Source: a virus. Taken from it: a DNA stretch of 64,000 nucleotides. Positions 31,707 through 63,998 of the stretch are shown piece after piece. Each line of letters begins with the position of its first letter. Within the stretch, counting starts at the first letter, position 1. The notes beneath the pieces are model-generated. The model searched no databases, was not told the origin of the DNA, and saw only the letters and a program-made list of their open reading frames with translations. Location of the stretch: positions 23,121 to 87,120 of IMG/VR virus record IMGVR_UViG_3300037840_000333. One strand, 5' to 3'. The position numbers and the translations under genes are program-made.

Positions 31707-31712
31707 ATCCTA
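31707..31712 (-). promoter_or_regulatory. -10 TAGGAT containing the portal stop codon
   Basis: The portal reading frame ends GGA TAG, and TAG is also the first half of TAGGAT, six bases before GTG 31700. A promoter here would allow protease and capsid genes to be transcribed separately from portal. Confidence 0.5.
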
Positions 31713-34700
31713 TCCCTGCAACCCGGCGATTTGAGCTATCTGCTGCGCTTGCAGCCACAAGTCGTAGTAGTTGGCCGTCTGGCCCTCGGACACCAGCGCC
31801 TCGGGCAACAGGCTGTTGTAGCGGGCCTCGGCCGCCTCGACGCTGGCGCTGTAGGTGTCGCCGAACTCGGGGTCGCTGGTGATCGGGACGGCGCTGTCGA
31901 TGATGTCGGCCAGGGAAGCCATCTCGCTCTCGTAGTCCTGATAGCTCATCTGCCAGATGCTCGGTCCGCCGGTGCCCTTCAGCTCCCGCTCCGCCAGGTC
32001 GAACGCTTCGGATTTCTGCGCCTCGCTGAGGTACGCCGTCGCCTCGGCCTTGTTGGTGAACAGGCTCTTGACGTCCACGTTGCTGTTGGCGAGCTGATTC
32101 CAGTTGAAGTTGCCGAACCGCTCCAAGTTGTTCGGCACCCGGCCCGTGTTCTCCAACAGGTTCCCGGCGTCCACGATCCGGGTCTGATCGAGCCAGTAGG
32201 ACATGGCCTCGTCCACGTTCGCATCGCTGCCGGCGCCGGTCGCCACCTGGAAGCCGGCCACCAGCTCGTCCGGCTTGGCGAGCGTGCCGGTCGTGTCGGG
32301 CAGCATCCACCCGTTAGTTCCCAACCGCTCCTGCTCGGACAGGGAGAGCTGGCGATACCAGTCGTAGGTGCCGCTCGTGTCGCCTCGTGCCGGCGTGGCG
32401 ATGACGTTCGCGCCCATGCTCTCGATCTGCCCGTAGGCGGTGTCCCGCGCCTCGGTGATCTCAGGCATCAACTCCGCCTTGGCCGCCGCGAGGTCGGAGG
32501 AGTCGGTGTCACCGTTCAGCAGGTCGCTCACGGCCTGGCTCAGGTAGCTGCTCCCGGTGTCGGCGCTGAAGTCGGTCGTGGGCTCGCCCTCCTCGCCCGT
32601 CTCCTCGCCCTCCTCGCCGGTGTCGCCGCCTTCCTCGCCGGTATCGTCGCCGGTGTCGGCCGGACCCCACACGGTGTTGAAGTCACACGAGCAGCCGTCG
32701 TGGTCGCCGGGGAAGAAGAAATCGTTCTCGGGCCAGTCGTCCGGGTTGGCGAGCACGTCGTCGGTAAAGCTGGCGAACGATTCGCCGTCGAGGTCCTCGT
32801 GGGGCTCAAACGGCCGCAGGGTCGGCCCGTGCACCCACTCGTAGCTCACGGCCTCGACGTCCGGGGCGGCGTTGAGCATGTCGGTCACGGCGTCGCCGGT
32901 GCCGATCTGCCCGGCCACGTCGGTCGCCTCAAACGTCGCGCTCACCTGAGCGCTCTCGGGGTCCTCGCCCACCTGTATCGGATTGTCCGCACTCACGTCG
33001 GTCACGTCCACCGGCTCGTCCATGGCGCCCACGTCGGCGGTGAGTCCCTTCCCCTGGCCGCTTCCGCCGCCGGCGATGGCGAGGGCGCGCCTTACCGCTC
33101 CCACGGGGACGATGGTGTTCGGATCGATGGTCGGGGCGTCGGGAGCGGTCGGGCTCGGGTTGTATAGCAGCCCCTCGGCGATGGTGTTCAGCTCGTCCAC
33201 GAAGCTCTGCCAAGCCGGCTGCAGTGCCGTCGCCATGCGCTGCTCCGCCTTCCGCACGGCCGGGCTGGTCATCTGGTAGCCGGCCAGCCTGGCCGCGCTG
33301 CGCAGGGCCGCATGCTGGGCAGCGTCGGTCCACCCGAGGAACTGGCCCTTCAGCTCGCTCCAATCCGGGTTGAGCAGGGCATGGGGGTCGGTGTAGCCGA
33401 GGCTCGCCACGACGGCCTGACCGAGGTTCTGCGCCACCTGCCGGTTCGGCACGCCTTGCACCTGGCTCCGCAGGCGGTCGTCCTTGTTGAACTTGCGGCT
33501 GGCGACCCGGGTGTGCAGCTTCGCTCCCGCCCTGTCGAGCAGCCGCACCATCGCGCTGCACGCCGCCACCTGGATCTTGGCCCGGAGCTGGGCGTCGAGC
33601 TGGGCCAGGTTCCGGCTCTCCCGGGCGTACATGGTCTGGCGCTTCGCCTTGGCCTCGGCGAACGCCGCATCGACCTGCCGGGCGAGCCCGGGGACGCTCG
33701 GGCTCGGGGGTGTCGCGGCCGGCGTCGCCGTGACGCTCGGTGGGGGCGGTGGCGCCGGGCTGGTCGTGTCCGCTGGCCCGGGGGGCAGCGCCGCGGCCGG
33801 CCCGGTCGGCAGGGGTTCCACGGCGCCCTTCGGTCCCATGCCCGGCACCTGGCCGCTCTGCTGGATCGGCGGGATCACGAGGTTCGGGTCGAGGGCGTGG
33901 ATCAGGGCCTCCAACACGTTCGGCGGGAAGCTCCGCAGCTTCTGGATCATGCGGATTTCCTTCTCCAACGCGTCCGGGGCGTCCTCCTCGGTGAATCCGC
34001 CGGCGTCCCGCAGGGCCATGTCGCTGATCGCCATGCGGTCGTGCAGCAGCACTGCGTTGCCCATCGGGTCCGGCTTGCTGATGAGGTCCACCGGGTTGTA
34101 CCAAATGCAGGCCCGGTCGATCCAGTACTTGTTGTGGCCCTTCGCCAGCAACCACGGCCGCATGAAGGCGATGGTCATGGCGTCGGCCTGGGTGATGACC
34201 TGGGGCTCGATGTGGTGGCGGAACGTATCGTCGCTGACGAGCCAGGCGCCCCAGTGGTTCGGGTCGCTCATGCCCTCTAGGACCTCTCGGGGCACGTCGA
34301 GCCCGGTGGCGAGCCGGCCGATGGCCTCCGCCCGCAGCTCCAAGGCCAAGCTGCTGTACGGCCGGTCGATCACCAGGTGCTCGAGCCCAGCGAGGCTCTC
34401 GGGCTCGCCGCTGATGGCGATGGGCACGACGGCGCTCGCCACTCCCTCGTCCGCCAAGGGGGTCATCATCGCCTCGGCGAACTTGCCGAACCACGAGTCG
34501 TTGAGCCCCGTATCGTCGTCCTCGGTCATGGCCTCCATGCGGAGCCCGTCGGGGATCTTCAGGATGCCGCCGCCGGCGAGCCGGCTCCTCGCCGTCGAGC
34601 GGACGTCCCGGCTCAGCAGCATCAGCTCCTCGCTCACGTCGAGGAGGCTGCGCATCGGGCTGGTGGCCATCTGGCTGAACCGCCACCACGGCACCCACAT

Positions 34701-35318
34701 GCGGGCGGCGTAGGCCGTCCTCGGGTCGATGTCTACCCAGCCGAGCGTGCCCTGGGGGTCGAGCGGGACCTCGCGCAGCTTGTACGTGTCATCGAAGATC
34801 ATGAACTCGTCGATGCTGCGGACCTTCCACGTGTCGCCGCCGTTCGGATCGTCCTGGCCCACGAGGTAGCACTCGCCCGGCACGCCGAACTGGTAGCTGA
34901 GGCTCTGCTGTATCGGGCTCAACGCCTGCCGGCCGACGCCGAGACTGGCGAGCGCCGCCTCCATGTCGTCGGCCAGTCCCGGTGGGGCGTCGGGGTGCTC
35001 GCGCACCGGGATCGGTGGGCCGTCGGGCTCCTCGGGGTTCACGATGGCGGCGAAGTAGCGCATCCGGCTCGACGCATGGGCGAGGAAGCGGTAGGCGAAG
35101 CTCAGCTCGGGCAAGTTGTCCACGTAGGCGCCGGCGTCCTGTTGCCACCCTTGGCGGAGTACCCGCATCTTCCGGGCCTCGACCTTGTTCGTCAGGTCGA
35201 TGGGCTGGGCCGAGGCTGTCATCGGCCGGTGCGGTACCGGCGCCTCCCGGCTGGCGGCGCGGCGGAGGAAGTTGCGCCCGCTCGGCGTCAGGCTCGTGCC
35301 GGTGCTGACTATGGCCAT
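31710..35318 (-). CDS. portal protein fused to MuF-like head morphogenesis domain
   Basis: 1202 residues. Residues 40-490 form the portal: PELSFAYRFLAHASSRMRYF, QQSLSYQFGVPGECYLVG, SPMRSLLDVSEELMLLSRDV, ATGLDVPREVLEGM and ALRDAGGFTEEDAP are typical of actinophage portals. A Pro/Ala linker (about 525-560) is followed by a long helical part (FAEAKAKRQTMYARESRNLA). Near residue 830-905 comes VSYEWVHGPTLRPFEPHEDL, later FFPGDHDGCSCDF, which is the H.g..C.C end of MuF-type minor head proteins. An acidic Gly/Glu/Thr repeat and about 260 further residues of unknown fold follow. In most phages portal and MuF are separate genes. The portal forms the dodecameric DNA channel; MuF-type proteins sit inside the head. 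ATG 35318 overlaps the previous stop. Confidence 0.85.
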   Translation of the reverse strand: MAIVSTGTSLTPSGRNFLRRAASREAPVPHRPMTASAQPIDLTNKVEARKMRVLRQGWQQDAGAYVDNLPELSFAYRFLAHASSRMRYFAAIVNPEEPDGPPIPVREHPDAPPGLADDMEAALASLGVGRQALSPIQQSLSYQFGVPGECYLVGQDDPNGGDTWKVRSIDEFMIFDDTYKLREVPLDPQGTLGWVDIDPRTAYAARMWVPWWRFSQMATSPMRSLLDVSEELMLLSRDVRSTARSRLAGGGILKIPDGLRMEAMTEDDDTGLNDSWFGKFAEAMMTPLADEGVASAVVPIAISGEPESLAGLEHLVIDRPYSSLALELRAEAIGRLATGLDVPREVLEGMSDPNHWGAWLVSDDTFRHHIEPQVITQADAMTIAFMRPWLLAKGHNKYWIDRACIWYNPVDLISKPDPMGNAVLLHDRMAISDMALRDAGGFTEEDAPDALEKEIRMIQKLRSFPPNVLEALIHALDPNLVIPPIQQSGQVPGMGPKGAVEPLPTGPAAALPPGPADTTSPAPPPPPSVTATPAATPPSPSVPGLARQVDAAFAEAKAKRQTMYARESRNLAQLDAQLRAKIQVAACSAMVRLLDRAGAKLHTRVASRKFNKDDRLRSQVQGVPNRQVAQNLGQAVVASLGYTDPHALLNPDWSELKGQFLGWTDAAQHAALRSAARLAGYQMTSPAVRKAEQRMATALQPAWQSFVDELNTIAEGLLYNPSPTAPDAPTIDPNTIVPVGAVRRALAIAGGGSGQGKGLTADVGAMDEPVDVTDVSADNPIQVGEDPESAQVSATFEATDVAGQIGTGDAVTDMLNAAPDVEAVSYEWVHGPTLRPFEPHEDLDGESFASFTDDVLANPDDWPENDFFFPGDHDGCSCDFNTVWGPADTGDDTGEEGGDTGEEGEETGEEGEPTTDFSADTGSSYLSQAVSDLLNGDTDSSDLAAAKAELMPEITEARDTAYGQIESMGANVIATPARGDTSGTYDWYRQLSLSEQERLGTNGWMLPDTTGTLAKPDELVAGFQVATGAGSDANVDEAMSYWLDQTRIVDAGNLLENTGRVPNNLERFGNFNWNQLANSNVDVKSLFTNKAEATAYLSEAQKSEAFDLAERELKGTGGPSIWQMSYQDYESEMASLADIIDSAVPITSDPEFGDTYSASVEAAEARYNSLLPEALVSEGQTANYYDLWLQAQQIAQIAGLQG

Positions 35319-37318: not shown

Positions 37319-37662
37319 CAGAACGGGGGCGCCTTCACGCCGAACTGACGGTTCATCGTGGCCTGGCAGGTCGGGGTCGGGGTGCCGTCCGGGTCGCCGA
37401 TGATCTTCACGGTGCAGACGTTGCCGCCTCCGCCGGGCCGGCCGCCCTTGCCGCTCGTGTCGTAGGTGCATCGGTACTGGCCCGTGCCGGTCCGGGTCAC
37501 CGCTGCATCGACGCCGTATGTCAGCGTCGTCGGCGTCACCTGGCCGAAGAACTGGCTCTCAAACTCGACCACGCTCGGGTCCACATTCGTGCCGGCCTCG
37601 TTCTGGAAGCCCTGGGGCGCCGTGTCCACGATCACGAGCTCGCCGTCGTCGTACCAGTTCAC
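37318..37662 (-). CDS. hypothetical beta-rich protein, 114 aa
   Basis: GTG 37662 overlaps the repeat protein stop as GTGA. The sequence begins NWYDDGELVIVDTAPQGF, continues EFESQFFGQVTPTTLTYG, TGQYRCTYDTSG and TCQATMNRQFG. 'Y.CtydTsG..G' reads like a small Ig-like sandwich with two or three cysteines. Many phages carry such a short Ig-like protein after tail fibres; related bacterial sequences are not recalled with certainty. Confidence 0.5.
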   Translation of the reverse strand: MNWYDDGELVIVDTAPQGFQNEAGTNVDPSVVEFESQFFGQVTPTTLTYGVDAAVTRTGTGQYRCTYDTSGKGGRPGGGGNVCTVKIIGDPDGTPTPTCQATMNRQFGVKAPPF

Positions 37663-38543
37663 GCGTGGTCTCCGATCAGGGTCGTGTCGGCCGGGTGGTC
37701 GCTGGCCGTCACGCTATCGGCCGCATGGTCGCTGAGGGTGACACGGAACGCTGGGTGGTCGCTCAGGGTCACGGTGCCGTTGATCGGCCGGGTGATGGTG
37801 AACGCCTCGACGCCGCTCCCGGTCTCGATCAGCACCACGGCGACGCCGGTGGCCGCGTTGTCGCTCCCCTGGCCGGTGTCGGTCATCAGGATCGTGATGC
37901 CGACAGTCAGCTCGTCGTCGCCGGCGCCGGTGTCGCTGACGATCACCGCCTCGCCGGTGGTGATGGCGTCGTTCCCGGTCCCGGTGTCGCTGTCGCTCAG
38001 GGATATGGCTGGGAGCCCGTCTGCGCCGGCTCCTGTCTCGCTGAGCCCTATCCCGACGCCCGGAAGGGTGTCTGTGCCGGAACCCGTGTCCGAGGCGCTG
38101 AGGGCAATCTGAGCGGCCGTGTCCGCGCCACTCCCGGTGTCGCTCGTGCTGAGGCTGATGCCGGGCAGGGTGTCGCTGCCGGTGCCGGTATCGGTGGCTG
38201 TCAGAGCCGCCGTGAGGGCCGCGCTTTCGCTGCCCGTCCCGGCCTCGGTGGCGGTCAGGGCAATCCCGGTCACGGTGTCGGCTCCGCTGCCCGTGTCGGC
38301 AAAGGTGATGGCGATGCCTTCCGTCAGCAGGTCCGCTCCCGATCCCGTGTCGCTCGTGCTGAGCGCCACGCCGGTCACGGTGTCCGCTCCGCTCCCGGTG
38401 TCGCTCGCCGTGAGGGCGATGGCCGTCAGGGAGTCCGTACCGCTGCCCGTGTCGCTGAGGCTCACCGGGACGTTCTGTGTCCCGAGCCCGCGGATCGTCA
38501 GCCCTCGCAGCTTGACGCCGCGGAGCCCGGAGTAGACCGCCAT
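37659..38543 (-). CDS. tail-associated repeat protein with 17-residue DTGSGxD repeats
   Basis: 294 residues, start ATG 38543 overlapping the preceding stop. An N-terminal tag (AVYSGLRGVKLRGLTIRGL) is followed by about thirteen repeats of 16-19 residues with consensus SDTGSGADTVTGVALS. Three shorter SDH units (SDHPAFRVTL, SDHAADSVTA, SDHPADTTL) close the protein. The alternation of a Gly/Asp turn and a hydrophobic strand predicts a beta solenoid, possibly Ca-binding at the Asp turns; it resembles but does not match RTX nonapeptides. The same tag and two repeats are found in the protein at 43477-43998, and one repeat ends the protein at 42643-42873. Probably a virion fibre or decoration; function unknown. 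Confidence 0.65.
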   Translation of the reverse strand: MAVYSGLRGVKLRGLTIRGLGTQNVPVSLSDTGSGTDSLTAIALTASDTGSGADTVTGVALSTSDTGSGADLLTEGIAITFADTGSGADTVTGIALTATEAGTGSESAALTAALTATDTGTGSDTLPGISLSTSDTGSGADTAAQIALSASDTGSGTDTLPGVGIGLSETGAGADGLPAISLSDSDTGTGNDAITTGEAVIVSDTGAGDDELTVGITILMTDTGQGSDNAATGVAVVLIETGSGVEAFTITRPINGTVTLSDHPAFRVTLSDHAADSVTASDHPADTTLIGDHA

Positions 38544-39874
38544 CAGTGCAGGCCGATCCCGGGGGCGCTCCGGGCCGCCGATACCGTCAGGTCGTCTCCG
38601 CCGCTGGCTCCGCCCACGCTCCCGGTCAACACGCCCGCCGGCGTCCCGAGGTAGAGCTGGTGGCAGCCGACGCCGACCATGTCGCTGTTCACCTGGGTCC
38701 ACCCGGCCCCGGGCACGTACAGCCGGGGGAACACGGCGCCGAAGCTGAAGAACCCGATATCGCCGGCCAGCACCGCCTTGGCCGTCGCCACGCTGCCGGT
38801 GTTGGCGAACACGACGGCGCCCTGGCTGTCGAGGGTCAGCGCCGGCGGGCAGCCGGCCAGCTCGAGGAGCAGGCACGCCGGCGTGCCGATGGGGACCTCC
38901 CACGTGGCGGTCAGCGTGGTCGTCCCGCCCTTGCAGCCGTTGACCACCCACACGGACCAGTCGAGCCCGCCATTGTTGTCGATGCCCTGGTCGGCAATCT
39001 TGCGCCAGACGTTCCCGGCGGTGTCGGTGACGGCGCTCACCTTGGCGCCGGTGATGATCGGGCTGTTCGACCCTTCGTAGTTCGCCCCGGTCACGAAGGC
39101 GACGAGGGTGTTGCCGGCCGTCGGGTTCACCGGGTAGCCGATGAGGGCGTTGCTGAGGGCCTGGCCCGTCTGGATCGGGGGCTCGTAGTAAGCGCTCTGC
39201 AGGACGTGGGGGCTCGTGGCGGCCACGCCGGTCTGGCGGAAGGCGGCGACGATGGCGGCGTTGTGGGTGGCGCCCGTGAGGGAGGTCCAGGCCGCCGTCT
39301 GCACGCCGGTCGAGGCGCCGCTGTCAACCTCCGCCACCCATAGGTGCTGGGTCGTGTCGGCTATGCGGGAGGTCCAGCCGCTCGGGACGGTGGCCGCCGA
39401 CTGGTCGCCCACCAGGGCCGAGAGCACGAGGTCGTGGGTCGCCGTCGTGGCGTAGTTCGTCGCCACGCTCAGGCTGGTGGTCGAGCCGTTCGTGGTGCCC
39501 ATGGCGTCGGTCAGCTCGTAGCCCGAGCCGCCGCTGTACTCCATGATCGCCATGTTCATGCCGCTGATGGCGTTGAGCGGGAACCCGTTGAGGCTGGCCG
39601 TCACCGTCGGCTGGTTACCTCCGCCGGCGCTCTCGCAGCACCACATATCCAGACCCCGGCTGGTGCCGTCGATGACCTCGGTCACCTGGCGCCACTTGTT
39701 GCCATGATTGTCGGTCACCTGGCCTACGGTCGGCGGGATGGATGCGCCGGTCCGGCTGATAATCGCCACCAGCAGGTTGCCGGCGCCGACGTTGCTGGCA
39801 TAGGTGGCGCTGATGGTCGTCCCGCTGGTCACTCGGGTGCCCTCGGCCGCGGCCTGGGCCTGGGCGTAGCTCAT
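38543..39874 (-). CDS. tail protein with two tandem sandwich domains
   Basis: About 443 residues; ATG overlaps the methyltransferase stop as ATGA. The first half (VGAGNLLVAIISRTG; MAIMEYSGGSGYELTD; THDLVLSALVGDQSA; NAAIVAAFRQTG) and the second half (TAGNTLVAFVTGANYEG; DWSVWVVNGCKGGTTTL; CLLLELAGCPPALTLD) share the same pattern, so the protein is an internal duplication of a jelly-roll-like domain often found in phage tails. A similar domain begins the minor tail protein at 7973-10516. Likely receptor-binding or decoration. Confidence 0.6.
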   Translation of the reverse strand: MSYAQAQAAAEGTRVTSGTTISATYASNVGAGNLLVAIISRTGASIPPTVGQVTDNHGNKWRQVTEVIDGTSRGLDMWCCESAGGGNQPTVTASLNGFPLNAISGMNMAIMEYSGGSGYELTDAMGTTNGSTTSLSVATNYATTATHDLVLSALVGDQSAATVPSGWTSRIADTTQHLWVAEVDSGASTGVQTAAWTSLTGATHNAAIVAAFRQTGVAATSPHVLQSAYYEPPIQTGQALSNALIGYPVNPTAGNTLVAFVTGANYEGSNSPIITGAKVSAVTDTAGNVWRKIADQGIDNNGGLDWSVWVVNGCKGGTTTLTATWEVPIGTPACLLLELAGCPPALTLDSQGAVVFANTGSVATAKAVLAGDIGFFSFGAVFPRLYVPGAGWTQVNSDMVGVGCHQLYLGTPAGVLTGSVGGASGGDDLTVSAARSAPGIGLH

Positions 39875-40356
39875 CGGCTGACCTGCAACAGGGCGAGCGT
39901 GTGCGGCGTCGCCAGGCGCACGCACTCCCAGCCGGGCGGGTCCTCCCCGAGCAGGCTGGCGGCGTCGTGCACCGCCACCACGGCGCCTGGCCCGAGGAAC
40001 GGCTTGATCCAGTCCAGCTCCCGCCGGCGCTGGCCCGAGATGTCGGAATCGAGGAAGGCCAGCCCCACCGGGTGGGTCGGCGTGAATCGGGTGGACGGAC
40101 AGTGGTGGACGTGCACGGGCAGCCCGATCACCGCCTCCTCGGTCAGCTCGCAGGCGCGCTCGTCGGTGTCGAAGGTGTCGAGGCGCCCGCCGTGCTCGGC
40201 CAGCGCCCGGCCAAGCGTCTTCGCCGTGCCGCCGTGGAAGCTGCCGGTCTCGATGACGAAGCTGGGCCGCAGCGCCCGCACGAGGGCATCGAGCAGCCGG
40301 TGGACCTCGGGCTCCGCCTCAAACGCCGCAGCGCAGGCGGGGTCGTGGCTGAACAC
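39871..40356 (-). CDS. class I SAM-dependent methyltransferase
   Basis: 161 residues from GTG 40356, six bases after the previous stop. Motif I is FVIETGSFHGGTAKTLG (residues 34-49), the end of strand two is RLDTFDTDERACE, and motif IV is LAFLDSDISGQRR followed by a helix and GAVVAVHDA. This is the short methyltransferase_24 or CmcI-like form, which usually methylates sugars, phenols or small molecules. Sitting among tail fibre genes it could modify a fibre, a surface glycan or a nucleotide. The target is unknown, and the chain lacks a visible extra binding domain. Confidence 0.75.
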   Translation of the reverse strand: MFSHDPACAAAFEAEPEVHRLLDALVRALRPSFVIETGSFHGGTAKTLGRALAEHGGRLDTFDTDERACELTEEAVIGLPVHVHHCPSTRFTPTHPVGLAFLDSDISGQRRRELDWIKPFLGPGAVVAVHDAASLLGEDPPGWECVRLATPHTLALLQVSR

Positions 40357-53774: not shown

Positions 53775-55433
53775 CTAACGCATGTCCTCGGGGCGCACCC
53801 GCCGGCCGCCAAGCTGCTCGCTGATGATCCGGCCCTGCCTCGTGCTCGGGGGGATGCTGCCCACCCGGGGGCGGCTGGTCTGGCTGCTCCGCTCGACCTT
53901 TTGCTTCGGGATCCGGCCGTCGGCGACCTCGACCTTGCCGGTGCCGGCGTTCGCTCCCAGCAGCAGGTCGGTGGCGGCGAACACCACGGCATCGAGTCGG
54001 TCCGGGCTCCACGTGCTCGGCTCCTCGCCCTCGGCGCCGGCGGTGTACTCGGGGTCGCCCGGGTCGCCGGCGTCGTCGTGCTCGGGTGGCACCCAGTTCG
54101 TGAGCTGGAACTCCAACTGCGCCAGGTGGCCGACGTGGTGGACCTTGCCCTGCTCGTAGAGCTGGTGGACGGGCTCGGCCCGAAGGCGCTTGCCCTTGCT
54201 GGCGAACACCAGCCCGAACGGGATGCGGATGCCGAGCTCTCGGCTGGTCGAGCGCATCACCAGGCGCACCTGCTCGGCCTGGAAGTTGCCCTCCCCCACC
54301 ACCCGCTCGCTCCGCCGGCCGTAGTACTCCCGGGGCTCGGGGGGCACGTAGTTGCCATCCTCGTCCCGCTGGTGCAGGTCGTCGTGGGTCGGCATGTAGC
54401 CGAGGGCAGCGAGCTGGCCCCACTCCATCGGCGTCACCCGCCGGCTGAGGTCCGCCAGCACGTACACGTGGCGGTGCCGGCTGATGCCGGCGACGATGAT
54501 GCCGCACTCGTCGTGGGTCGTGCCCCAACTCGGGTCCACGTAGGTCCGCACCCGCAGCAGCGCGGGTACCTCCTCGGCGCTCACCCGGTGCTGCTCGATC
54601 AGCTCCTGAGCCCACAGGGCGCCGGTGACCTCCTCGAGGATCAGCCCTTTCAGCTCTTGCAGCCCGAGTCGGGTGTTGCCGTACTGCTCGTAGAGCTGGT
54701 GGCGGATCTCCTCGGGCAGGTACGGATTGTCGTCGGTCTCGGCCGTGCTCAGGCAGACGATGCTGCTCGTGCTGAGCTTCCTGATCGTTGGCCGGGGCCT
54801 CGGCGTCGTGGCGCCTACCCAGCGCGGGTGGGGGCCGCTGCGGAGCCCGAGGTCGGCCTGGGCCACGCCCTCACGCAGGTAGCGCCAGGCGGCCAGCTCC
54901 TCCCGCACGTCGAAGCAGCGGTTCCCCTTGGCTCGCAGGCGGTCCACGTCGGACAGGGTGTGGACGCCGAACAGGAAGGCGAAGGCGCCGTTCGGCCATT
55001 TGGCGACGGTGCCGCCTTTCTGCGTGACCTCCTTCACGTCCGGGTTGATCGTCACCAGCCCGTCCACGCCGTGCACGATGGAGGCGCTGGCGTCGCCGAA
55101 GGTCGGGGCGATGATGCCCATGCGGTGGGGCACTCGGCCGGGGAAGCACGCCGGGCCGTTCGCGTGCTCGTCCATGGCGTGACACACGGCCGCTGTCTTG
55201 CCGACGCCTCGCCCGCCCATCAGGAGCCACCCGTGCCACCGCTCCTCGATGTTCGGATGCCGCTGGTGGGGTAGTGGCTCCCACGGCGGCCTGGGCGGTT
55301 CTAGGGCCTCGATGCGCTCCCACAGCGCCTCGCGCTCCGCCGGCGGGTAGCTCTCGACCAGCGCCACGATCTGCTCGGGCGTGACGTCATCGCCGAGCAT
55401 CCATTCCAGGTCGTCCTCGGCCGCGAGCGCCAC
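53775..55433 (-). CDS. terL: terminase large subunit
   Basis: 552 residues from GTG 55433, six bases after TAGCAT. Walker A is GGRGVGKT (residues 73-80). MGIIAPTFGDASASIVHG follows, then FDVREELAAWRYL as the Walker B and acidic-residue region (Asp, then Glu-Glu), then WVGATTPRPRP as the coupling segment. The nuclease half begins VRTYVDPSWGTTHDECGIIV, with the first Asp of the RNase H fold, continues YVLADLS and ends with a DRLDAVVFAATDLLLG helix carrying a late Asp. The enzyme powers packaging and cuts concatemers at the portal. No adjacent small terminase is obvious. The tail fibre cassette separates it from the portal by 18 kb. Confidence 0.88.
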   Translation of the reverse strand: MALAAEDDLEWMLGDDVTPEQIVALVESYPPAEREALWERIEALEPPRPPWEPLPHQRHPNIEERWHGWLLMGGRGVGKTAAVCHAMDEHANGPACFPGRVPHRMGIIAPTFGDASASIVHGVDGLVTINPDVKEVTQKGGTVAKWPNGAFAFLFGVHTLSDVDRLRAKGNRCFDVREELAAWRYLREGVAQADLGLRSGPHPRWVGATTPRPRPTIRKLSTSSIVCLSTAETDDNPYLPEEIRHQLYEQYGNTRLGLQELKGLILEEVTGALWAQELIEQHRVSAEEVPALLRVRTYVDPSWGTTHDECGIIVAGISRHRHVYVLADLSRRVTPMEWGQLAALGYMPTHDDLHQRDEDGNYVPPEPREYYGRRSERVVGEGNFQAEQVRLVMRSTSRELGIRIPFGLVFASKGKRLRAEPVHQLYEQGKVHHVGHLAQLEFQLTNWVPPEHDDAGDPGDPEYTAGAEGEEPSTWSPDRLDAVVFAATDLLLGANAGTGKVEVADGRIPKQKVERSSQTSRPRVGSIPPSTRQGRIISEQLGGRRVRPEDMR

Positions 55434-58543: not shown

Positions 58544-59221
58544 TCACCCACCCTTCCCGCAGCCGGCGCCGTTGTTCCACGCACCCGGGCCGAACCCACC
58601 GTTCGCTGCGTAGATCTGCAGGGCCACCTGGGCCTGGGTGTCGGCGCTGTAGTCGCCGGGGACTCCGCTCATGCCGTAGCTCTGCCACGTACTCACCAGG
58701 ATGCCGTAGCCGCCGCTCGTGTCGCCGAAGTTGCCGCTGCTCTCGGGCTCGATCACGCAGCGGTACCAGTCGGCCGTGAACGCGTCGGTGGCGTCACTCC
58801 CGGTTGAAGTGGGGGTCGGCGGCGATGGTGGGGCCGTCGTCGGGGTGGGCGCCGGTGGCGGTGGCTCCGTCGTGGGCGTAGGCGTTACGGGCGCAGGTGC
58901 CGTAGTGGCCGGGGGTGCGGTGGCCGCACTCGGGGCAGTAGGCGGAGGCGCGGCCGAAGTGGGCGGTGAGGTCGCTGCCGTCGGTGTCGGTGGTGTCGGG
59001 AGGATCGGTGTACGGGTCAGCGGTTCCAGCGGCATCAAGAAGGCCGACGAGTCGGCGGAGTGCAATCGCCGAGCTAATCGCGCCGGCGTGACGCTCCGCG
59101 TAGCGGATGTGTCCTTCAAGCTCCTGGTCGATGTGGATGGTGGTGCTTTCCATTTTGCGGCTCCGAGGGTTGCGAATGCCAATAGGACGATCAGCCCTAT
59201 GCGGGCTGTTGTGCGGTACAT
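58544..59221 (-). CDS. secreted Rpf/transglycosylase-like protein with Pro/Thr linker
   Basis: 225 residues. Signal peptide: MYRTTARIG, core LIVLLAFATLGAAKW. A linker of about 75 Pro/Thr/Ala/Ser residues follows (from about residue 72 to 145). The C-terminal 75 residues are the enzyme: WYRCVIEPESSGNFGDTSGG with Glu in the catalytic 'C.i..ESsGn' position, YGILVSTWQSYGM, then AQVALQIYAANGGFGPGAWN. This is the lysozyme-like fold of resuscitation-promoting factors and phage transglycosylases that cut peptidoglycan. Secretion by signal peptide means action from outside or in the wall of the living host, unlike the GH25 endolysin. The linker DNA carries another ORF in a different frame. Confidence 0.7.
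   Translation of the reverse strand: MYRTTARIGLIVLLAFATLGAAKWKAPPSTSTRSLKDTSATRSVTPARLARRLHSADSSAFLMPLEPLTRTPILPTPPTPTAATSPPTSAAPPPTAPSAATAPPATTAPAPVTPTPTTEPPPPAPTPTTAPPSPPTPTSTGSDATDAFTADWYRCVIEPESSGNFGDTSGGYGILVSTWQSYGMSGVPGDYSADTQAQVALQIYAANGGFGPGAWNNGAGCGKGG
58794..59153 (-). CDS. overprinted ORF inside the transglycosylase linker, zinc-finger-like
   Basis: 119 codons in a frame different from the host gene, wholly inside it. ATG 59153 is preceded by TCGGAG at a usable distance. The product has a helical start (IHIDQELEGHIRYAERHAGA; ISSAIALRRLVGLLDAAG) and a C-x2-C...C motif (YCPECGHRTPGHYGTC). Third codon positions in this frame are nearly all G or C, typical of real genes here, while the Pro/Thr linker frame uses mixed third bases. 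So codon bias favours this ORF within the overlap, but the linker frame is also open and joins a signal peptide to a convincing enzyme. Both may be translated. Confidence 0.5.
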   Translation of the reverse strand: MESTTIHIDQELEGHIRYAERHAGAISSAIALRRLVGLLDAAGTADPYTDPPDTTDTDGSDLTAHFGRASAYCPECGHRTPGHYGTCARNAYAHDGATATGAHPDDGPTIAADPHFNRE

Positions 59222-59392
59222 GAGATGGGGGCGTTTCCTTCGTTCGGTCGGCCGGGTGGTTCCGGCTCTCTGTCAGTTGGGGTGGACGCCCCGAATCGCA
59301 TGTAGGGCTGAGTCCGACTGGTGTATGCCTGGTCGGCCTTCGCGTGAACGCGGTCAGCTATGCACGGGGGGTGGGTGTCCGGGTGGCGGTGA
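59222..59392 (-). other. gene-free stretch before the transglycosylase-like gene
   Basis: 171 bases between the stop at 59393 and ATG 59221. It contains a likely but distant ribosome-binding site (GAAGGAAA) and no CTAG-type promoter motif. GC content is lower than in flanking genes. Probably promoter and leader of an unrecognised type. Confidence 0.4.
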
Positions 59393-59773
59393 TTAGCTCG
59401 TGGTCGGTCCTCCTCGGGTCGCCGTCAAGGTTAGGCGCTCTCGGCCGGGCTGGGGGCGCAACAAGTGGCGCGGCGGTGTCCTGGGGCCGATCCCTGGGCA
59501 GCGGCCGTCGAGGCAAGCCCTGCACGCCTCTGAGGTGCTTGCAGGGCTCATCTGGCAACCCCAACACGGGTGCTCGGCGCCGCTCAGCTCCATCGCCTGC
59601 CAGATCACCGCCAGCTCGTGCTGGTCGGGCAGGCCCCAGCGGAAGGTGACCCGTATCTGCAGTTCGGGGTCGTCTCGGTGCGGGCTCAGGCTGACGGTGG
59701 TCCGCTCGCCCAGCCCGACCTCGGCGAGAGCCTGGCGCACGCGCTCCGCCTGCTCCGCACTGGCTTGCTCCAT
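59393..59773 (-). CDS. hypothetical protein with cysteine cluster, 126 aa
   Basis: ATG 59773 lies four bases after the preceding stop. The N-terminal 70 residues are helix then strands (AEQAERVRQALAEVGLGERT; TVSLSPHRDDPELQIRVTF), and the middle holds five cysteines (PCWGCQMSPASTSEACRACL, then GRC), probably binding zinc. The last 30 residues are basic Pro/Arg-rich. Not exported by sequence, although flanked by exported proteins. Confidence 0.5.
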   Translation of the reverse strand: MEQASAEQAERVRQALAEVGLGERTTVSLSPHRDDPELQIRVTFRWGLPDQHELAVIWQAMELSGAEHPCWGCQMSPASTSEACRACLDGRCPGIGPRTPPRHLLRPQPGRERLTLTATRGGPTTS

Positions 59774-59777
59774 GCCG

Positions 59778-60137
59778 CTAGCCGCCGGTGCTCGCGCTCA
59801 GCGCCGCGGCGAGCTGGGCGTGGTCCTGGGCAATCTGCTGACGCACCCGGGCCGTAAAGGCCGCGGCCTGGGGCGTGCCGGCCTCCGGGCAATCGAGCTG
59901 GTGTACGAAGGACGGGTCAGGGTGGCACGGGCCCCAATAGGCGTTCCCGACGACCTGGCCGCCCGGCTGCACCTGCAGGTAGCCCTCCTGGGGGATGGCC
60001 GAGTCCTGGGCGAGCTGGGCCCGCCAGTGGGCAACCGCCGCCGTCTCGCCGGTGCTCGGCGGCGCTCCCTGGGTCGTCGCCAGCAGGAAGCCGGCGGTGA
60101 CCGGCAAGGTCACGAGGATCTTCCGCAGGTGTCTCAT
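59778..60137 (-). CDS. small exported protein, 119 aa, leaderless
   Basis: ATG 60137 is seven bases after TAGCGT. Signal peptide MRHLRKILVTLPVTAGFLLA with cleavage expected near TTQGA. The mature chain has a helix (AVAHWRAQLAQDSAIPQEG), NAYWGPCHPDPSFVHQLDCP with two cysteines that may form a disulfide, and a C-terminal helix (FTARVRQQIAQDHAQLAAAL). No known domain. Confidence 0.6.
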   Translation of the reverse strand: MRHLRKILVTLPVTAGFLLATTQGAPPSTGETAAVAHWRAQLAQDSAIPQEGYLQVQPGGQVVGNAYWGPCHPDPSFVHQLDCPEAGTPQAAAFTARVRQQIAQDHAQLAAALSASTGG

Positions 60138-60144
60138 TCCGCTA

Positions 60145-60150
60145 ACGCTA
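60145..60150 (-). promoter_or_regulatory. leaderless-type -10 TAGCGT before ATG 60137
   Basis: Minus strand CCGCTAGCGTTAGCGGAATG, seven-base gap. CTAGAC, next to the stop of the preceding gene, lies 18 bases upstream as a possible -35. Confidence 0.65.
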
Positions 60151-60174
60151 GCGGATGGCGCTCCGCCCGTCTAG

Positions 60175-60663
60175 CTATCCCGTGGGCAGCAGGAAGGCGA
60201 TGGCGGTGTAGCCGTCTCTCGGGTCGGGCCCGCTCGTCGGCCGGTTGTTGATGACGACGGCGCTCGGGTCCTCGGGGCTGTTGCCCTCGATGCTCTCAAA
60301 GCTGCCGGGGCTGGCGGCCAGCACGATCCCATCGTGGCCGGCCTCGCCGGGCGCCATGCCCGGAATGTTGAACTCGACCACGTCGCCGGGCTGGGGTACC
60401 GGGCTCGGGTCGGGGCGCAGGTAGTACGTGAAGGTCCCTGGGCCCGTCGCGTCCTGCCAGCCGGGGATCGTCGCCTCCCCGATGGCGTTGACGAACTTGT
60501 AGCACCAAAATCCGCCGGCGGCATAGGGCGGGTTCTGCCAGCCGACCTCGGCGTTGGCATAGCCGACGAAGTTGCCGGTGGGCGTGTCGGGCCACGGGTA
60601 GCAGGCGGTGGCGGCCAGTGCGAGACCGACCGCCACCACTCCTGCCGCTAGTCGTCGCCTCAC
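60175..60663 (-). CDS. CHAP-type peptidase lipoprotein
   Basis: 162 residues; GTG 60663 directly follows the preceding stop. Lipoprotein signal: MRRRL, core AAGVVAVGLALAATA, Cys21. The mature part follows CHAP amidase/endopeptidase order: FVGYANAEVGWQNPPYAAGG, GFWCYKFVNA with Cys54, QPGDVVEFNI, then GHDGIVLAA with His110 and FESIEGNSP with Glu126/Asn128. CHAP enzymes cut peptidoglycan peptides. A lipid-anchored CHAP enzyme would act on the wall from outside the membrane, perhaps as host remodelling or superinfection defence rather than lysis. Confidence 0.7.
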   Translation of the reverse strand: MRRRLAAGVVAVGLALAATACYPWPDTPTGNFVGYANAEVGWQNPPYAAGGFWCYKFVNAIGEATIPGWQDATGPGTFTYYLRPDPSPVPQPGDVVEFNIPGMAPGEAGHDGIVLAASPGSFESIEGNSPEDPSAVVINNRPTSGPDPRDGYTAIAFLLPTG

Positions 60664-61101
60664 CTAGCAGGTGATGTACTTCGTGTTGCTGGCGATGAAG
60701 GCGCCGTTCCCGAACAACGACGCAGCCGCCAGCGTCCGGTAGTCCAGCGTGCCGCTCTGACAGTCGCCGTACCCGTACAGGTGGCCGCCGTCCTCGCTGT
60801 TGTTGCACGCCGCTCCGTCCACGCCCTGGTACGAGTCGTTGTACCAGCCGCCGAACACGTAGACCTGCACGCAGGAGTCATACAGAATCCAGCCCTGGTG
60901 CGGTGCCGGGCATTCGGTCGTGCCGAGCACGATGTAGTACCAGACGGGCGTGTCGGGGAAGACGTTGGAGCAGGTCAGGTCTGCGCCCGCCGGGCTCGCC
61001 GGGGCCGAGGCGACCGAGCCGGCGATAGCCAGCCCTCCCGCTCCGATCAGCCCGGCCACGCTGATAACGGCGACGGCCAGCCATCGCTTGATCTTTCTCA
61101 C
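60664..61101 (-). CDS. secreted cysteine-rich protein, 145 aa
   Basis: GTG 61101 with GGGAGG seven bases upstream. Signal peptide MRKIKRWLAVAVISVAGLIG, core to about residue 28, with cleavage expected after an Ala-rich stretch. The mature part has six cysteines (LTCSNVFPD; TTECPAPHQG; YDSCVQVYVFGGW; AACNNSEDGG; GDCQSGTLD; final TC) that could form three disulfides, and is rich in Tyr and Gly. No family recognised. Transcribed just upstream of the CHAP lipoprotein with no gap. Confidence 0.6.
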   Translation of the reverse strand: MRKIKRWLAVAVISVAGLIGAGGLAIAGSVASAPASPAGADLTCSNVFPDTPVWYYIVLGTTECPAPHQGWILYDSCVQVYVFGGWYNDSYQGVDGAACNNSEDGGHLYGYGDCQSGTLDYRTLAAASLFGNGAFIASNTKYITC

Positions 61102-61146: not shown

Positions 61147-62994
61147 CTACAGGCCGAACGCCGCTTTCAGGTCGCTGGCCGTGCTGGCCGCGTTCAGGTG
61201 GGCCACGCCGGCGTTGTCATCGAGCCACCGGCACAGGGAGTAGTGGTTCGCCGTCAGCGTCACGACCTTGTGGCTCAGCCTCGGGTCGATCGCCACGAAC
61301 TGCACGAGGTTGCCCTGGCTGCTGTCATCCTCGTCGAACGTGATGATGATGGTCAGATGCCCGCTGGTGTAGTCCGGGCCCGCCATGATGACCGGGATCC
61401 ACTGCTGCAGCCAGGTGTTGGCCTGGGCCAGGGTGCCGTCGTGGGCATCGTCCTGCAGGTTGGGCGTCAGGTCGCCGGTCACCGGCAGGTTGCCGCTCGC
61501 CACGTCGGCGGCGAAGGCGCCGCTCGTGCTCGTGCCGGCCGGGACGTCATAGGTGTTGCACTCGCTGCGCTCCGTCGCGTCCAGCCAGAACGGCCACGGG
61601 GCGTGCCGGGGCACGTAGTTGCCGCTCCCGGTCGTGAAGCAGTTGCTCGGCATGCTCTCGGCGTATTCCTTCGCCGTCTTGCCGGCCGCAATGGTCTGGC
61701 CAAACACGCTCGGCGGGGTCGGCACGCAGCCGCTCGATGCCACCGGGCAGTCGCCTCCGGGCACCGTCTGGCCGCCATAGATGGCGAGGTAGTTGGGCAG
61801 GCTCGGGTGGCCGATCCCGAAATAGCTCGTAGCCGTGCCGTAGGTGTTGCCCAGCCCGGTCAGGTAGGGCATGCCGGCGGTGGACTCGGCCTGGCTGTGA
61901 TTCTCCTCGGGGATCACGAGCACCTTGTGCTGGCCGCCGGTCGGCTTGGTCGTGCTCGTGGTGCTGGTGCTCGTGCTGGTCGATGTGGATGTGGACGTGC
62001 TCGTGCTCGTGGAGCTGCTGGTCGTCGTGGTCGTCGTCGTGGTCCGGGCCGGGATGATGTTGTGCATGGCGTCGATGTAGTCGCCGTAGCCGCTGGCGCT
62101 CTCCCAGCCGTGGCAGTCCGCTCCGCCGGCCGCATCGGCGTCGCCGGTCGAGCTGCACCCGGCCGTGCTCTCCACCTGGGTCCCCTCGCCGTACTCGTTC
62201 CACGTGGTCACGAGCTCTAGGGGGGCCTGGCTCGCCACCATCGCCGTCAGGTTGCTCTGCCACGCCGTGAGGCTCCGGGGCAGTCGGGCGCTGGCTTCGT
62301 TCGCCTTGTTGTACCCGGGGCTCACGGTGTAGCTCTGGCCGGCCTGACTATCGGTGGCGACGGCCGGGCCGTACTGGTGCCACCCGTTCGGCTGGTGGGC
62401 GCAGCTCGTGTACCCGGGGAACACCCGCAGCGTCACGTAGAACGGCTGGGCCTGGGCCGCGTTGGCCTGGGACCAGTTGGCGGCGTCGGTGCAGTTGTTG
62501 TCGCTGTAGACGTAGATGGTCGGTTTGTTGTCGATCCACAGCCACCGGCTGCTCCCGGTGTATTGCTTGCCGATGTAGGCGAGGTCGCTCTGGATCTGCG
62601 CCTCGGTGGCGTTGCGGACCTCGTAGTACACGCTCCACTTGAACCCGGTGTCGGCCGCGGCGGCGAGGTCCGTCGGCACCACCTTGTCCTCCTGGCTGCC
62701 CTGGCCCCACCAGCTCGTGAACGCCGCATCGAGGTGGGCGTACTGCATCGCCTTGATCTGGCCCTTGATGACCGGCTCGCTCGTGCTGTCATAGAAGCCC
62801 TGGCTCGGGGCGTACTTGGTGAACGGGCTCAGCGATTGCTGGGTCCACCCGGGCCCGCTGGCTCCGCCGGCGCCGTACCACTGGTAGATCACGGCCGCCC
62901 TGATCGGCGGCGTCTCGTTGGGGCTGGTCTGGCAGGCGGTGAAGATCCCGGCCAGCACGAGTAAGGACGCGAGGACTGCCCATCTCCGTCTCAT
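61147..62994 (-). CDS. secreted fusion: GH99-like domain, Ser/Thr linker, phosphoesterase domain
   Basis: 615 residues from ATG 62994 (seven bases after TACGGT; a GTG three codons earlier is possible). Lipoprotein-type signal MRRRWAVLASLLVLAGIFTA with Cys21. Residues 30-320 fit the GH99/GH71-like barrel: AVIYQWYGAGG, KGQIKAMQYAHLDAAFTSWW, KWSVYYEV, IYVYSDN, YTVSPGYNK, LVTTWNEYGEGTQVEST. A roughly 33-residue Ser/Thr tract follows. The rest matches the phosphoesterase family of acid phosphatases and phospholipases C (VLVIPEENHSQ, GIGHPSLPNYLAIYGG, IIITFDEDDSSQGNLVQFVA). It might attack host surface glycans and release phosphate or a phospho-linked group. Joining these two activities in a phage protein is unusual. 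Confidence 0.7.
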   Translation of the reverse strand: MRRRWAVLASLLVLAGIFTACQTSPNETPPIRAAVIYQWYGAGGASGPGWTQQSLSPFTKYAPSQGFYDSTSEPVIKGQIKAMQYAHLDAAFTSWWGQGSQEDKVVPTDLAAAADTGFKWSVYYEVRNATEAQIQSDLAYIGKQYTGSSRWLWIDNKPTIYVYSDNNCTDAANWSQANAAQAQPFYVTLRVFPGYTSCAHQPNGWHQYGPAVATDSQAGQSYTVSPGYNKANEASARLPRSLTAWQSNLTAMVASQAPLELVTTWNEYGEGTQVESTAGCSSTGDADAAGGADCHGWESASGYGDYIDAMHNIIPARTTTTTTTTSSSTSTSTSTSTSTSTSTSTTSTTKPTGGQHKVLVIPEENHSQAESTAGMPYLTGLGNTYGTATSYFGIGHPSLPNYLAIYGGQTVPGGDCPVASSGCVPTPPSVFGQTIAAGKTAKEYAESMPSNCFTTGSGNYVPRHAPWPFWLDATERSECNTYDVPAGTSTSGAFAADVASGNLPVTGDLTPNLQDDAHDGTLAQANTWLQQWIPVIMAGPDYTSGHLTIIITFDEDDSSQGNLVQFVAIDPRLSHKVVTLTANHYSLCRWLDDNAGVAHLNAASTASDLKAAFGL

Positions 62995-63001
62995 GCGGGC
63001 C

Positions 63002-63007
63002 ACCGTA
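63002..63007 (-). promoter_or_regulatory. leaderless-type -10 TACGGT before ATG 62994
   Basis: Minus strand CGCTACGGTGGCCCGCATG, seven-base gap. It lies in the 25-bp space after the stop at 63020 and would start the secreted-protein transcript. Confidence 0.5.
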
Positions 63008-63019
63008 GCGGCCGGAGGC

Positions 63020-63409
63020 TCAGGCTCGGGTGATCCAGTTCCGGAACGCCTGCCAGCGCCACCACAGGCGCAGGCGGTCGCTCGGACGCCTGGGCCTCAC
63101 GTCGGCCGTCCGGCCGTCCTCGTGGATGCGGGTCACGACCTGCTCGTGCTCGCCGATGGTGACGAGGAACGGCACCGTGGGCGGTTCTCCGGTGAAGCTG
63201 ACGCTCATCGTGGCCGGGGCTCGCTCGGGCTGGCTCGGGTGCTCCCGCCGGCCGAACGCTGCGCCGGTGATGACCCCGAGGTCGAGCAGTGCTGCCGATG
63301 CGGTAATCCAGTGCGGGCCCGTGGCGGCCGTGATCCCGGCCAGCACAGCTAGAGCGGCCTGCAATACGGTTCGCAGCCCCTTCGCCGCGTTCGGCTCCTC
63401 CTCGCTCAT
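63020..63409 (-). CDS. membrane protein, 129 aa
   Basis: ATG 63409 overlaps the preceding stop as ATGA. A short acidic start is followed by a hydrophobic region (TVLQAALAVLAGITAATGPHW; ASAALLDLGVITGAAFG), two likely membrane passes. The C-terminal half is soluble, with a beta hairpin (MSVSFTGEPPTVPFLVTIGE) and a basic end (DRLRLWWRWQAF). The layout recalls small phage holins with extended cytoplasmic tails but no signature is clear. Confidence 0.55.
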   Translation of the reverse strand: MSEEEPNAAKGLRTVLQAALAVLAGITAATGPHWITASAALLDLGVITGAAFGRREHPSQPERAPATMSVSFTGEPPTVPFLVTIGEHEQVVTRIHEDGRTADVRPRRPSDRLRLWWRWQAFRNWITRA

Positions 63410-63603
63410 TCCGGCTCTCCGACTGGGCCGATGAACACTTCATGCTGGCCGCACCACGATCCGACGTACAGGTGGGTGGCGATGCCCGCCCATCGACTGC
63501 CATCTAGGCCGGTCATGTGGTGGGTCACCATCACCCGCTGGCGACAGACTGGGCAGACTGCCATCTCGGGCTGGTATTCCACGTCGGGCAGGATTCTGGT
63601 CAT
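63406..63603 (-). CDS. small Cys/His protein, 65 aa
   Basis: ATG 63603 overlaps the preceding stop as ATGA. The chain contains MAVCPVCRQRVMVTHHMTG, then HLYVGSWCGQHEVFIG, three cysteines and several histidines forming a probable zinc-ribbon. It ends GPVGEPE. The junction to the next gene is a copy of the junction before it (20 bases around CAGTCGGAGAGCCGGAATGA), so a short segment was duplicated here. Confidence 0.55.
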   Translation of the reverse strand: MTRILPDVEYQPEMAVCPVCRQRVMVTHHMTGLDGSRWAGIATHLYVGSWCGQHEVFIGPVGEPE

Positions 63604-63998
63604 TCCGGCTCTCCGACTGGGGGGTGAAGGGCGGCAACCAACGAATCCCACCACTGACGCACAACCTCTCGCTTCCCTACTTCGGGATGCGCCGTGCGGA
63701 CTAGTCCTGCCGCCTTCGTTTCGATGAGCGTCAACCGCTCTACCTCGCCCCGGAGCCGTTGGACCTCGGTTTGCAGTTGATCCCGTTCCACGTCACAGTC
63801 ATGCGCGTTGCTGGCACGGATGAAAACATCGCTGCCGACATAACCGCCGATGTCAAGCAGTAGCCGTTCCAGCTCCTCCACTCGCTGGCGTAGGGAGTCG
63901 ATGGTGAACGCGCACCGACGTTCCAGTGGCGTATAGCGATACCAGTTGCGCGGCTTACGGATCGTCGCCACTTCCGCGTCGCTCAGCGGCGCGGACAA
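63600..63998 (-). CDS. coiled-coil protein, start near or beyond window edge
   Basis: 132 codons from a TTG at 63998; the frame stays open to the edge, so the true start may lie outside. The chain begins PLSDAEVATIRKPRNWYRYT, continues with long heptad helices (TIDSLRQRVEELERLLLD; ERDQLQTEVQRLRGEVERLT) and ends with helix VVRQWWDSLVAALHPPVGEPE. A dimerising coiled coil of unknown role. Its last residues VGEPE repeat in the next protein because of the duplicated gene junction. Confidence 0.55.
   Translation of the reverse strand: MSAPLSDAEVATIRKPRNWYRYTPLERRCAFTIDSLRQRVEELERLLLDIGGYVGSDVFIRASNAHDCDVERDQLQTEVQRLRGEVERLTLIETKAAGLVRTAHPEVGKREVVRQWWDSLVAALHPPVGEPE

Follow-up and report, generated by a model that had tools for sequence, protein, structure and literature searches.

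A soil-type bacteriophage encodes, in a single open reading frame, a predicted exported protein that joins a GH99-like glycosidase domain to a phosphoesterase domain, and the same glycosidase clade lies fused to or beside phosphoesterases in other viruses and in bacteria. As this pairing recurs with two unrelated kinds of phosphatase, it suggests an attack on a phosphorylated sugar coat outside the cell. Phage-borne exported carbohydrate-active enzymes are known; new here is the glycosidase–phosphatase pairing in phages, which as an observation is well supported. We found no report of a GH99–phosphatase fusion or pairing in phages in the open-access literature; GH99 is mentioned once for mangrove viruses, there under the label glucose-6-phosphate isomerase. 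The window, i.e., the whole stretch analyzed here, comprises 64,000 nt (positions 23,121–87,120) of the 87,120-base virus record IMGVR_UViG_3300037840_000333, and coordinates given without a locus name are window positions.

One phage gene combines a GH99-like and a phosphoesterase domain

The fusion gene is a single stop-free frame of the following layout:

61147–63003, minus strand: complete open reading frame, 618 amino acids, GTG start
62932–63003, minus strand: signal peptide, residues 1–24, with a basic start, a hydrophobic core and then FTAC, from the sequence
62038–62916, minus strand: GH99-like domain, residues 30–322, (β/α)8 type, from Pfam, profile, predicted fold and conservation
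62185–62199, minus strand: N269-E270-Y271-G272-E273, the GH99 catalytic E-x-x-E motif (EYGE here, EW[H/G]E in the family)
61942–62037, minus strand: Ser/Thr-rich linker, about residues 323–354, read directly from the sequence
61150–61941, minus strand: PF04185 phosphoesterase domain, residues 355–618, predicted SapM/AcpA type, from Pfam, fold and residues

At position 62994, where the preliminary description had begun the gene, an internal ATG follows the GTG by three codons and could equally well be the start. All six motifs that this description had named were found in the one minus-strand frame, i.e., YQWYG (residues 40–44), TSWW (96–99) and WNEYGEGTQVEST (268–280) in the glycosidase half and EENH (366–369), HPSLPNY (399–405) and TFDEDD (555–560) in the phosphoesterase half. 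Its central claim, a GH99-like and phosphoesterase fusion in one exported phage protein, was borne out by Pfam, profile and predicted-fold matches and by the record being that of a real phage. It had also called the protein lipoprotein-type. The signal peptide is clear and predicts export, but the lipobox is doubtful, with FTAC here and AAMC, i.e., no lipobox, behind the signal peptide of the closest viral homologue (L098), and we regard the lipoprotein assignment as weak. Ser/Thr-rich linkers of this sort are mannosylation targets in actinobacteria (PMC12757957).

The glycosidase domain belongs to a GH99-like subfamily

The two domains were aligned and modelled separately. Pfam Glyco_hydro_99 (PF16317) matched the first domain with E 8.4e-10 and 38.7 bits, above the curated cut-off of 33, and single-sequence PDB matches of the reading frame were to GH99 endo-α-mannosidase. 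A family profile of the domain matched solved GH99 enzymes with E 5e-47, covering positions 7–263 of 269. The AlphaFold2 model (pLDDT 87.8) had the (β/α)8 fold, and its best 36 PDB matches were all GH99, with TM scores up to 0.73. Nearly all of 59 relatives retain Y40, W42, W98-W99-G100, E128, Y211, N269, E270, E273 and E278. The catalytic glutamates E270 and E273, which align with E404 and E407 of human MANEA, keep their spacing, and tyrosine replaces tryptophan between them.

The assignment to GH99, correct for the domain as a whole, has to be narrowed in one respect, as the canonical H[I/L]EPY motif is absent and reads YYEV in the window protein. Tyrosine replaces the histidine of H[I/L]EP in 46 of 46 members of the close clade, and histidine is found in 13 of 13 distant relatives, a clean split. 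Because the clade lacks the motif of the characterized endo-α-mannosidases, we file the domain on its sequence as GH99-like rather than canonical GH99, and for the same tyrosine substitution mannose specificity may not carry over. Compared with the endo-α-1,2-mannosidases and mannanases BtGH99 (4ACY), BxGH99 (5M03) and human MANEA (6ZFA), the domain has in common the fold, the E-x-x-E pair, WWG and the equivalent tyrosine. It differs by shorter loops, by YYE instead of H[I/L]EP, by EYGE/EWGE in place of EWHE, by the lack of an N-glycan context and by being joined to a phosphatase, and its substrate is putative only.

The second domain resembles SapM/AcpA-type phosphomonoesterases

Pfam PF04185 matched the second domain with E 1e-13 and 51.6 bits (cut-off 23). 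The family profile retrieved phospholipases C and AcpA from the PDB (E 5e-9 to 1.6e-6), and the AlphaFold2 model (pLDDT 85.9) retrieved the AcpA/phospholipase C/alkaline phosphatase superfamily at a TM score, relative to the query, of about 0.7. Structure prediction of both halves, which the preliminary description had proposed as a check, hence returned GH99 and AcpA/phospholipase C structures, with both catalytic clusters intact. Predicted active-site residues are E367 and N368 (metal), S401 (nucleophile), H467, H521, D557, E558 and H587. In SapM, mutation of E59, N60, S95, H160, H204, D238 and E239 abolished activity (PMC6635428); by motif and spacing E367, N368, S401, H467, H521, D557 and E558 are the counterparts of these seven essential residues, and they are conserved in 19–20 of 20 relatives.

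The description had left open a phosphatase or phospholipase C type. Its phosphatase part stands; phospholipase C is compatible with the fold but is disfavoured by the SapM-type residues, the domain size and the calcineurin-like alternative partner described below, and a SapM/AcpA-type phosphomonoesterase would be the better fit. AcpA is among the fold matches, and the serine nucleophile and the metal and substrate residues E, N, S, H, H, D and E are shared with SapM/AcpA-type phosphatases (PMC6635428). Unlike these, the window domain is phage-encoded and fused to a GH99-like domain, with a substrate that is putative only.

The pairing recurs in other viruses

Scanning viral contigs with the whole protein or with two GH99 sequences gave no matches, a limit of sensitivity that wider profiles revealed. 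With these, the same fusion was found elsewhere, and we rejected the idea that it is unique to the window phage. The phosphoesterase profile retrieved a full-length fusion of 58% identity (L098) on a 25.6-kb viral record (G301), which has in common with the window phage two tail-type genes, a methyltransferase and one further gene. The GH99 profile retrieved 13 viral loci. At least three viral contigs besides the window carry the GH99–PF04185 fusion (L098, L131, L138/L139), and in two more (L134, identical to L101, and L142, identical to L102) a PF04185 gene precedes and overlaps the GH99 gene. In these overlaps (L134:4989, L142:4995) stop and start share bases over 1–4 positions, and the phosphoesterase has a signal peptide and the GH99 protein has none. 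In four others (L132, L135, L137, L141) the same GH99 clade is fused to an unrelated calcineurin-like domain, PF00149, whose PDB match in L135 is purple acid phosphatase. One locus (L136) encodes GH99 alone with no phosphoesterase; in three (L133, L140, L143) a contig end interrupts the GH99 gene, and they were left out of the complete-gene counts. As the nucleophile motif of the L131 phosphoesterase is degenerate, these proteins may be able to do without one of their two activities.

Signal peptides are present in the window protein and in all other viral fusions. The unfused viral GH99 proteins (L134, L142, L136, L143) have none, so export is not universal in viral GH99 proteins; in L143, whose neighbours are similar to window-phage genes, the domain follows a non-signal N-terminal segment. 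Head and packaging genes are frequent neighbours. In L138/L139 a minor head gene flanks the fusion on one side, and scaffold and major head genes flank it on the other; in L140 the gene follows terminase and portal; a portal adjoins it in L137, a terminase is nearby in L141, and the major head protein is nearby in L132 and L135. In another record (G304) the GH99–phosphoesterase pair lies beside tail-fibre-like genes. For two of the viruses a tyrosine integrase gene was found.

Counts and p-values for the pairing are approximate, as contig ends truncate some neighbourhoods, loci are not independent and the PF00149 HMM was built from linked cases; with this reading, 10 of 11 viruses with a complete close-clade GH99 gene pair it with a phosphoesterase, fused or overlapping (PF04185 in six, PF00149 in four), or 8 of 9 when limited to viruses found by the GH99 scan itself, compared with none of 14 distant GH99 genes (Fisher p 3e-6, viral vs distant). 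On the same approximate footing, with the sigma-factor forms set aside, 10 of 19 bacterial close-clade loci have a phosphoesterase linked at 1.3 kb or less (Fisher p 0.001 vs the distant genes), and none of eight sigma-factor fusions has one. The fusion is neither unique nor phage-specific. The earlier statement that it is not known from characterized phages agrees with our literature search, but the fusion does recur in other viral contigs and in bacterial metagenome-assembled genomes (MAGs).

Bacterial relatives and gene transfer

An Acidimicrobiales MAG (L009; GH99, CBM96-like and phosphoesterase domains) and a Chloroflexota genome (L056/L110) encode the same fusion, and another Chloroflexota locus (L011/L118) has it in reversed domain order. 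The chromosomal Acidimicrobiales protein is the closest bacterial homologue, with 52% identity in the glycosidase domain. These proteins share with the window protein the same two domains in one exported polypeptide, with glycosidase identities up to 52%; they differ in lying on bacterial contigs, in having extra CBM96 or linker domains and, in one case, in the reversed order. A Chloroflexota protein of 1013 residues (L060/L115) joins GH99 to PF00149, and separate but neighbouring GH99 and phosphoesterase genes were found at six loci (L010/L106, L012/L109, L112, L113, L114, L116). Bacterial homologues are secreted, often with CBM96.

A conserved Chloroflexota cluster (L112–L114) contains a family-2 glycosyltransferase that is DPMS-like by sequence, a GtrA/DPMS-PMT membrane protein, phosphatases and the GH99 clade. 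We read it as putative polyprenyl-phosphate-sugar machinery beside the GH99 clade. The phosphatases of the cluster belong to PF04185 and PF00149; CBM96 is present too, and the GH99-type genes number at most three.

Streptomyces, Streptacidiphilus, Actinoplanes and Catenulispora have sigma-70/ECF-type proteins (L005:3780–5792, L014, L016–L021) whose C-terminal, presumably extracellular domain belongs to the same GH99 clade; these might switch transcription in response to glycans. The layout of these Streptomyces-type relatives, a cytoplasmic sigma part followed by an outer sugar-related domain, is like that of ECF52 sigma factors (SCO4117, PMC5826349). The outer domain of ECF52, in contrast, is a carbohydrate-binding module and not GH99, and the window protein lacks a sigma part.

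In a tree of the glycosidase domain the window protein and L098 paired (100/99), beside the Acidimicrobiales protein and the viral L143. Viral rows were scattered, with 8 parsimony changes of which at least 3 are forced by well-supported branches. Because the tree mixes viral and bacterial rows, the genes must have moved several times between viruses and bacteria. By origin the gene qualifies as an auxiliary metabolic gene: the tree indicates that it came from cells, and phage genes throughout the record confirm the phage genome.

Genomic setting in the window phage

PHROGs matched portal, head protease, major head protein, tape measure, terminase, helicase and annealing protein genes, and we conclude that the record is a real phage. 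Genes referred to here are:

31710–35318, minus strand: portal protein (phrog_776, E 3.7e-91)
26331–28244, minus strand: major head protein (phrog_777, E 5.8e-62)
53775–55400, minus strand: terminase large subunit (phrog_38, E 2.6e-12), on the strand of the fusion gene
60664–61101, minus strand: small secreted protein, next downstream gene, preceded by GGGAGG, no Pfam or PHROG match
58544–59221, minus strand: exported protein with Thr/Pro linker and a weak transglycosylase-like C-terminal domain (PF06737, E 0.0066, below cut-off)

Nearly all genes of the window phage are on one strand, including the fusion gene, whose surroundings have the base composition of the rest of the window; the contig ends 1 kb beyond the gene. 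A GH25 lysozyme gene is located within the structural region. No tyrosine integrase was found in the window phage. Around the fusion gene there was no match to an RNA family, no tRNA and, by a crude scan, no standard promoter, and the two genes directly downstream matched no Pfam family. Since G+C content is high and the nearest bacterial homologue is from an Acidimicrobiales MAG, the host is probably a high-G+C actinobacterium.

Proposed role and alternatives

Our best explanation, which we hold tentatively and with a little less than even confidence, is an exported enzyme with two active sites that strips a phosphorylated host surface glycan, with a benefit around lysis. It builds on the single reading frame with its signal peptide, both folds and both catalytic sets, on its location in a phage, on recurrence in unrelated phages and on the coupling to two unrelated phosphatase superfamilies. 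To these it adds late expression, taken from gene position only, mannose specificity, a surface substrate and the benefit at lysis. The infected cell would export the protein by the Sec route during late gene expression. Outside the membrane the GH99-like barrel would cut an α-linked, probably mannose-type glycan with E270/E273, and the SapM/AcpA-type domain would take phosphate off the same glycoconjugate via Ser401. Together the domains would strip or loosen the phosphorylated surface glycan of the host, perhaps a receptor or an envelope glycan. Around lysis, cells and debris would then present fewer receptors on which progeny could be caught or through which rivals could enter, and exit would be easier.

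The constant element is a GH99-like glycosidase accompanied by a phosphatase, for which two unrelated kinds have been used, and the simplest reading is a single substrate carrying both a glycosidic and a phosphate ester bond. Kinship to GH99 and the DPMS/PMT neighbours point to a mannose-type glycan, and export together with placement among head genes points to action outside the cell late in infection. The phosphorylated mannan or polymer named as target in the preliminary description is plausible in this light, given the recurrent link to two phosphatase folds. In Streptomyces, ppm1 and pmt, i.e., mannosylation, are needed for φC31 infection (PMC5882110), hence mannosylated surface molecules can be phage receptors (PMC5882110; PMC12757957), and stripping them could free progeny or exclude rivals. 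The broader proposal of a new class of phage proteins is on balance doubtful. These two-step phosphoglycan strippers would be exported and made late, their GH99-like clade joined repeatedly and independently to either of two unrelated phosphatase superfamilies, and they would destroy an envelope glycan, mannosyl and phosphorylated, that is either a phage receptor or a barrier to exit.

The main rival is scavenging of phosphate and carbon. An infected or lysogenic host would export the enzyme to free phosphate and sugars from phosphorylated mannans in soil (fungal wall phosphomannan, necromass), aiding phage replication or host fitness, and we consider this possible, if well short of an even chance. 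Both phosphatase types fused to GH99 are often secreted acid phosphatases (SapM/AcpA, purple acid phosphatase), the bacterial homologues are secreted and often carry CBM96, and soil viruses do encode polysaccharide hydrolases that are functional, among them an active GH5 endomannanase (PMC6786970). Bacteria, moreover, keep the same pair for their own use, so that nutrition or envelope turnover fits as well as a surface role. The integrases of two of the viruses would suit a lysogenic benefit, but the window phage has none, location within capsid and packaging blocks indicates late expression, the crude scan gave no independent promoter, and near-obligate pairing exceeds the needs of a scavenger. 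Soil viral GH5 endomannanase (PMC6786970) and chitosanase (PMC9485262) are likewise polysaccharide hydrolases on soil phages, but those described are glycosidases only, whereas here the glycosidase is paired with a phosphoesterase.

It is unlikely that the barrel is a non-enzymatic, glycan-binding anchor tethering the phosphatase to the cell surface. Such a role would agree with the altered motif, H to Y, and with the outer domain that this clade supplies to membrane-bound sigma factors of ECF type from relatives of Streptomyces, at a position known for sensors (PMC5826349), but both catalytic glutamates, E128, Y211 and WWG are kept in essentially all members, including all viral ones. We are equally sceptical, if not slightly more so, of a virion-borne or lysis-released depolymerase whose GH99 part attacks the surface glycan of the next host from outside. 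The viral GH99 proteins without signal peptide and the pair beside tail-fibre-like genes are in its favour; the signal peptide of the window protein and all other fused forms speaks against it, and in none of these was a virion-anchoring domain recognized. That a host gene was captured by chance, or that the assembly is chimeric, with no role for the gene in the phage, is very improbable. The gene does lie near the contig end, and its closest bacterial homologue is chromosomal, but the full-length homologue in G301, a phage with tail and methyltransferase genes in common with the window phage, and the agreement of composition and strand with the neighbours led us to reject chimera or contamination, and active sites have stayed intact across the divergence of the two phages.

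Should the pairing prove functional, soil-bacterial phages would have in common an exported means of attacking a phosphorylated glycan not yet named by anyone as their target. One glycosidase clade repeatedly joined to two unrelated phosphatases is a strong hint at the chemistry of this glycan, and the bacterial DPMS/PMT-type cluster suggests where to seek it. If true, our reading would provide a way, open to testing, of reaching mannose-type phage receptors and envelope glycans of Actinomycetota and Chloroflexota that are hard to culture.

Further features of the phage contigs

Downstream of the fusion gene (58544–61101) lies a series of small exported proteins. The product of 58544–59221 has relatives in viral loci L094 and L096, and that of 60175–60663 (WCYKFVN...GDVVEF...GHDGIV) resembles a CHAP/NlpC-type amidase by eye, with no Pfam match. 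Small overlapping upstream genes share PVGEP(E) at or near the C-terminus (63406–63603 and 63600–63998; L098:835–1226), perhaps a 3' end holding the ribosome-binding site of the next gene. In the tail region, 37659–38543 encodes a protein of repeated (A/S)DTGSGADT-like units, and a methyltransferase (PF13578) lies between two tail-type genes both in the window (39871–40356) and in G301 (L125:2267–2740).

In other viral contigs PF04185 is joined to GH16 (L103, by Pfam), to a weak 3-keto-disaccharide-hydrolase match (L099) and to unassigned domains (L100, L104); the L104 gene stands directly before terminase and portal. In a scan of the phage collection the sole GH99-like gene was that of Aeropyrum pernix ovoid virus 1, orf10-284 (L006:6127–6981), annotated as hypothetical, a GH99-family protein with a C-terminal hydrophobic segment.
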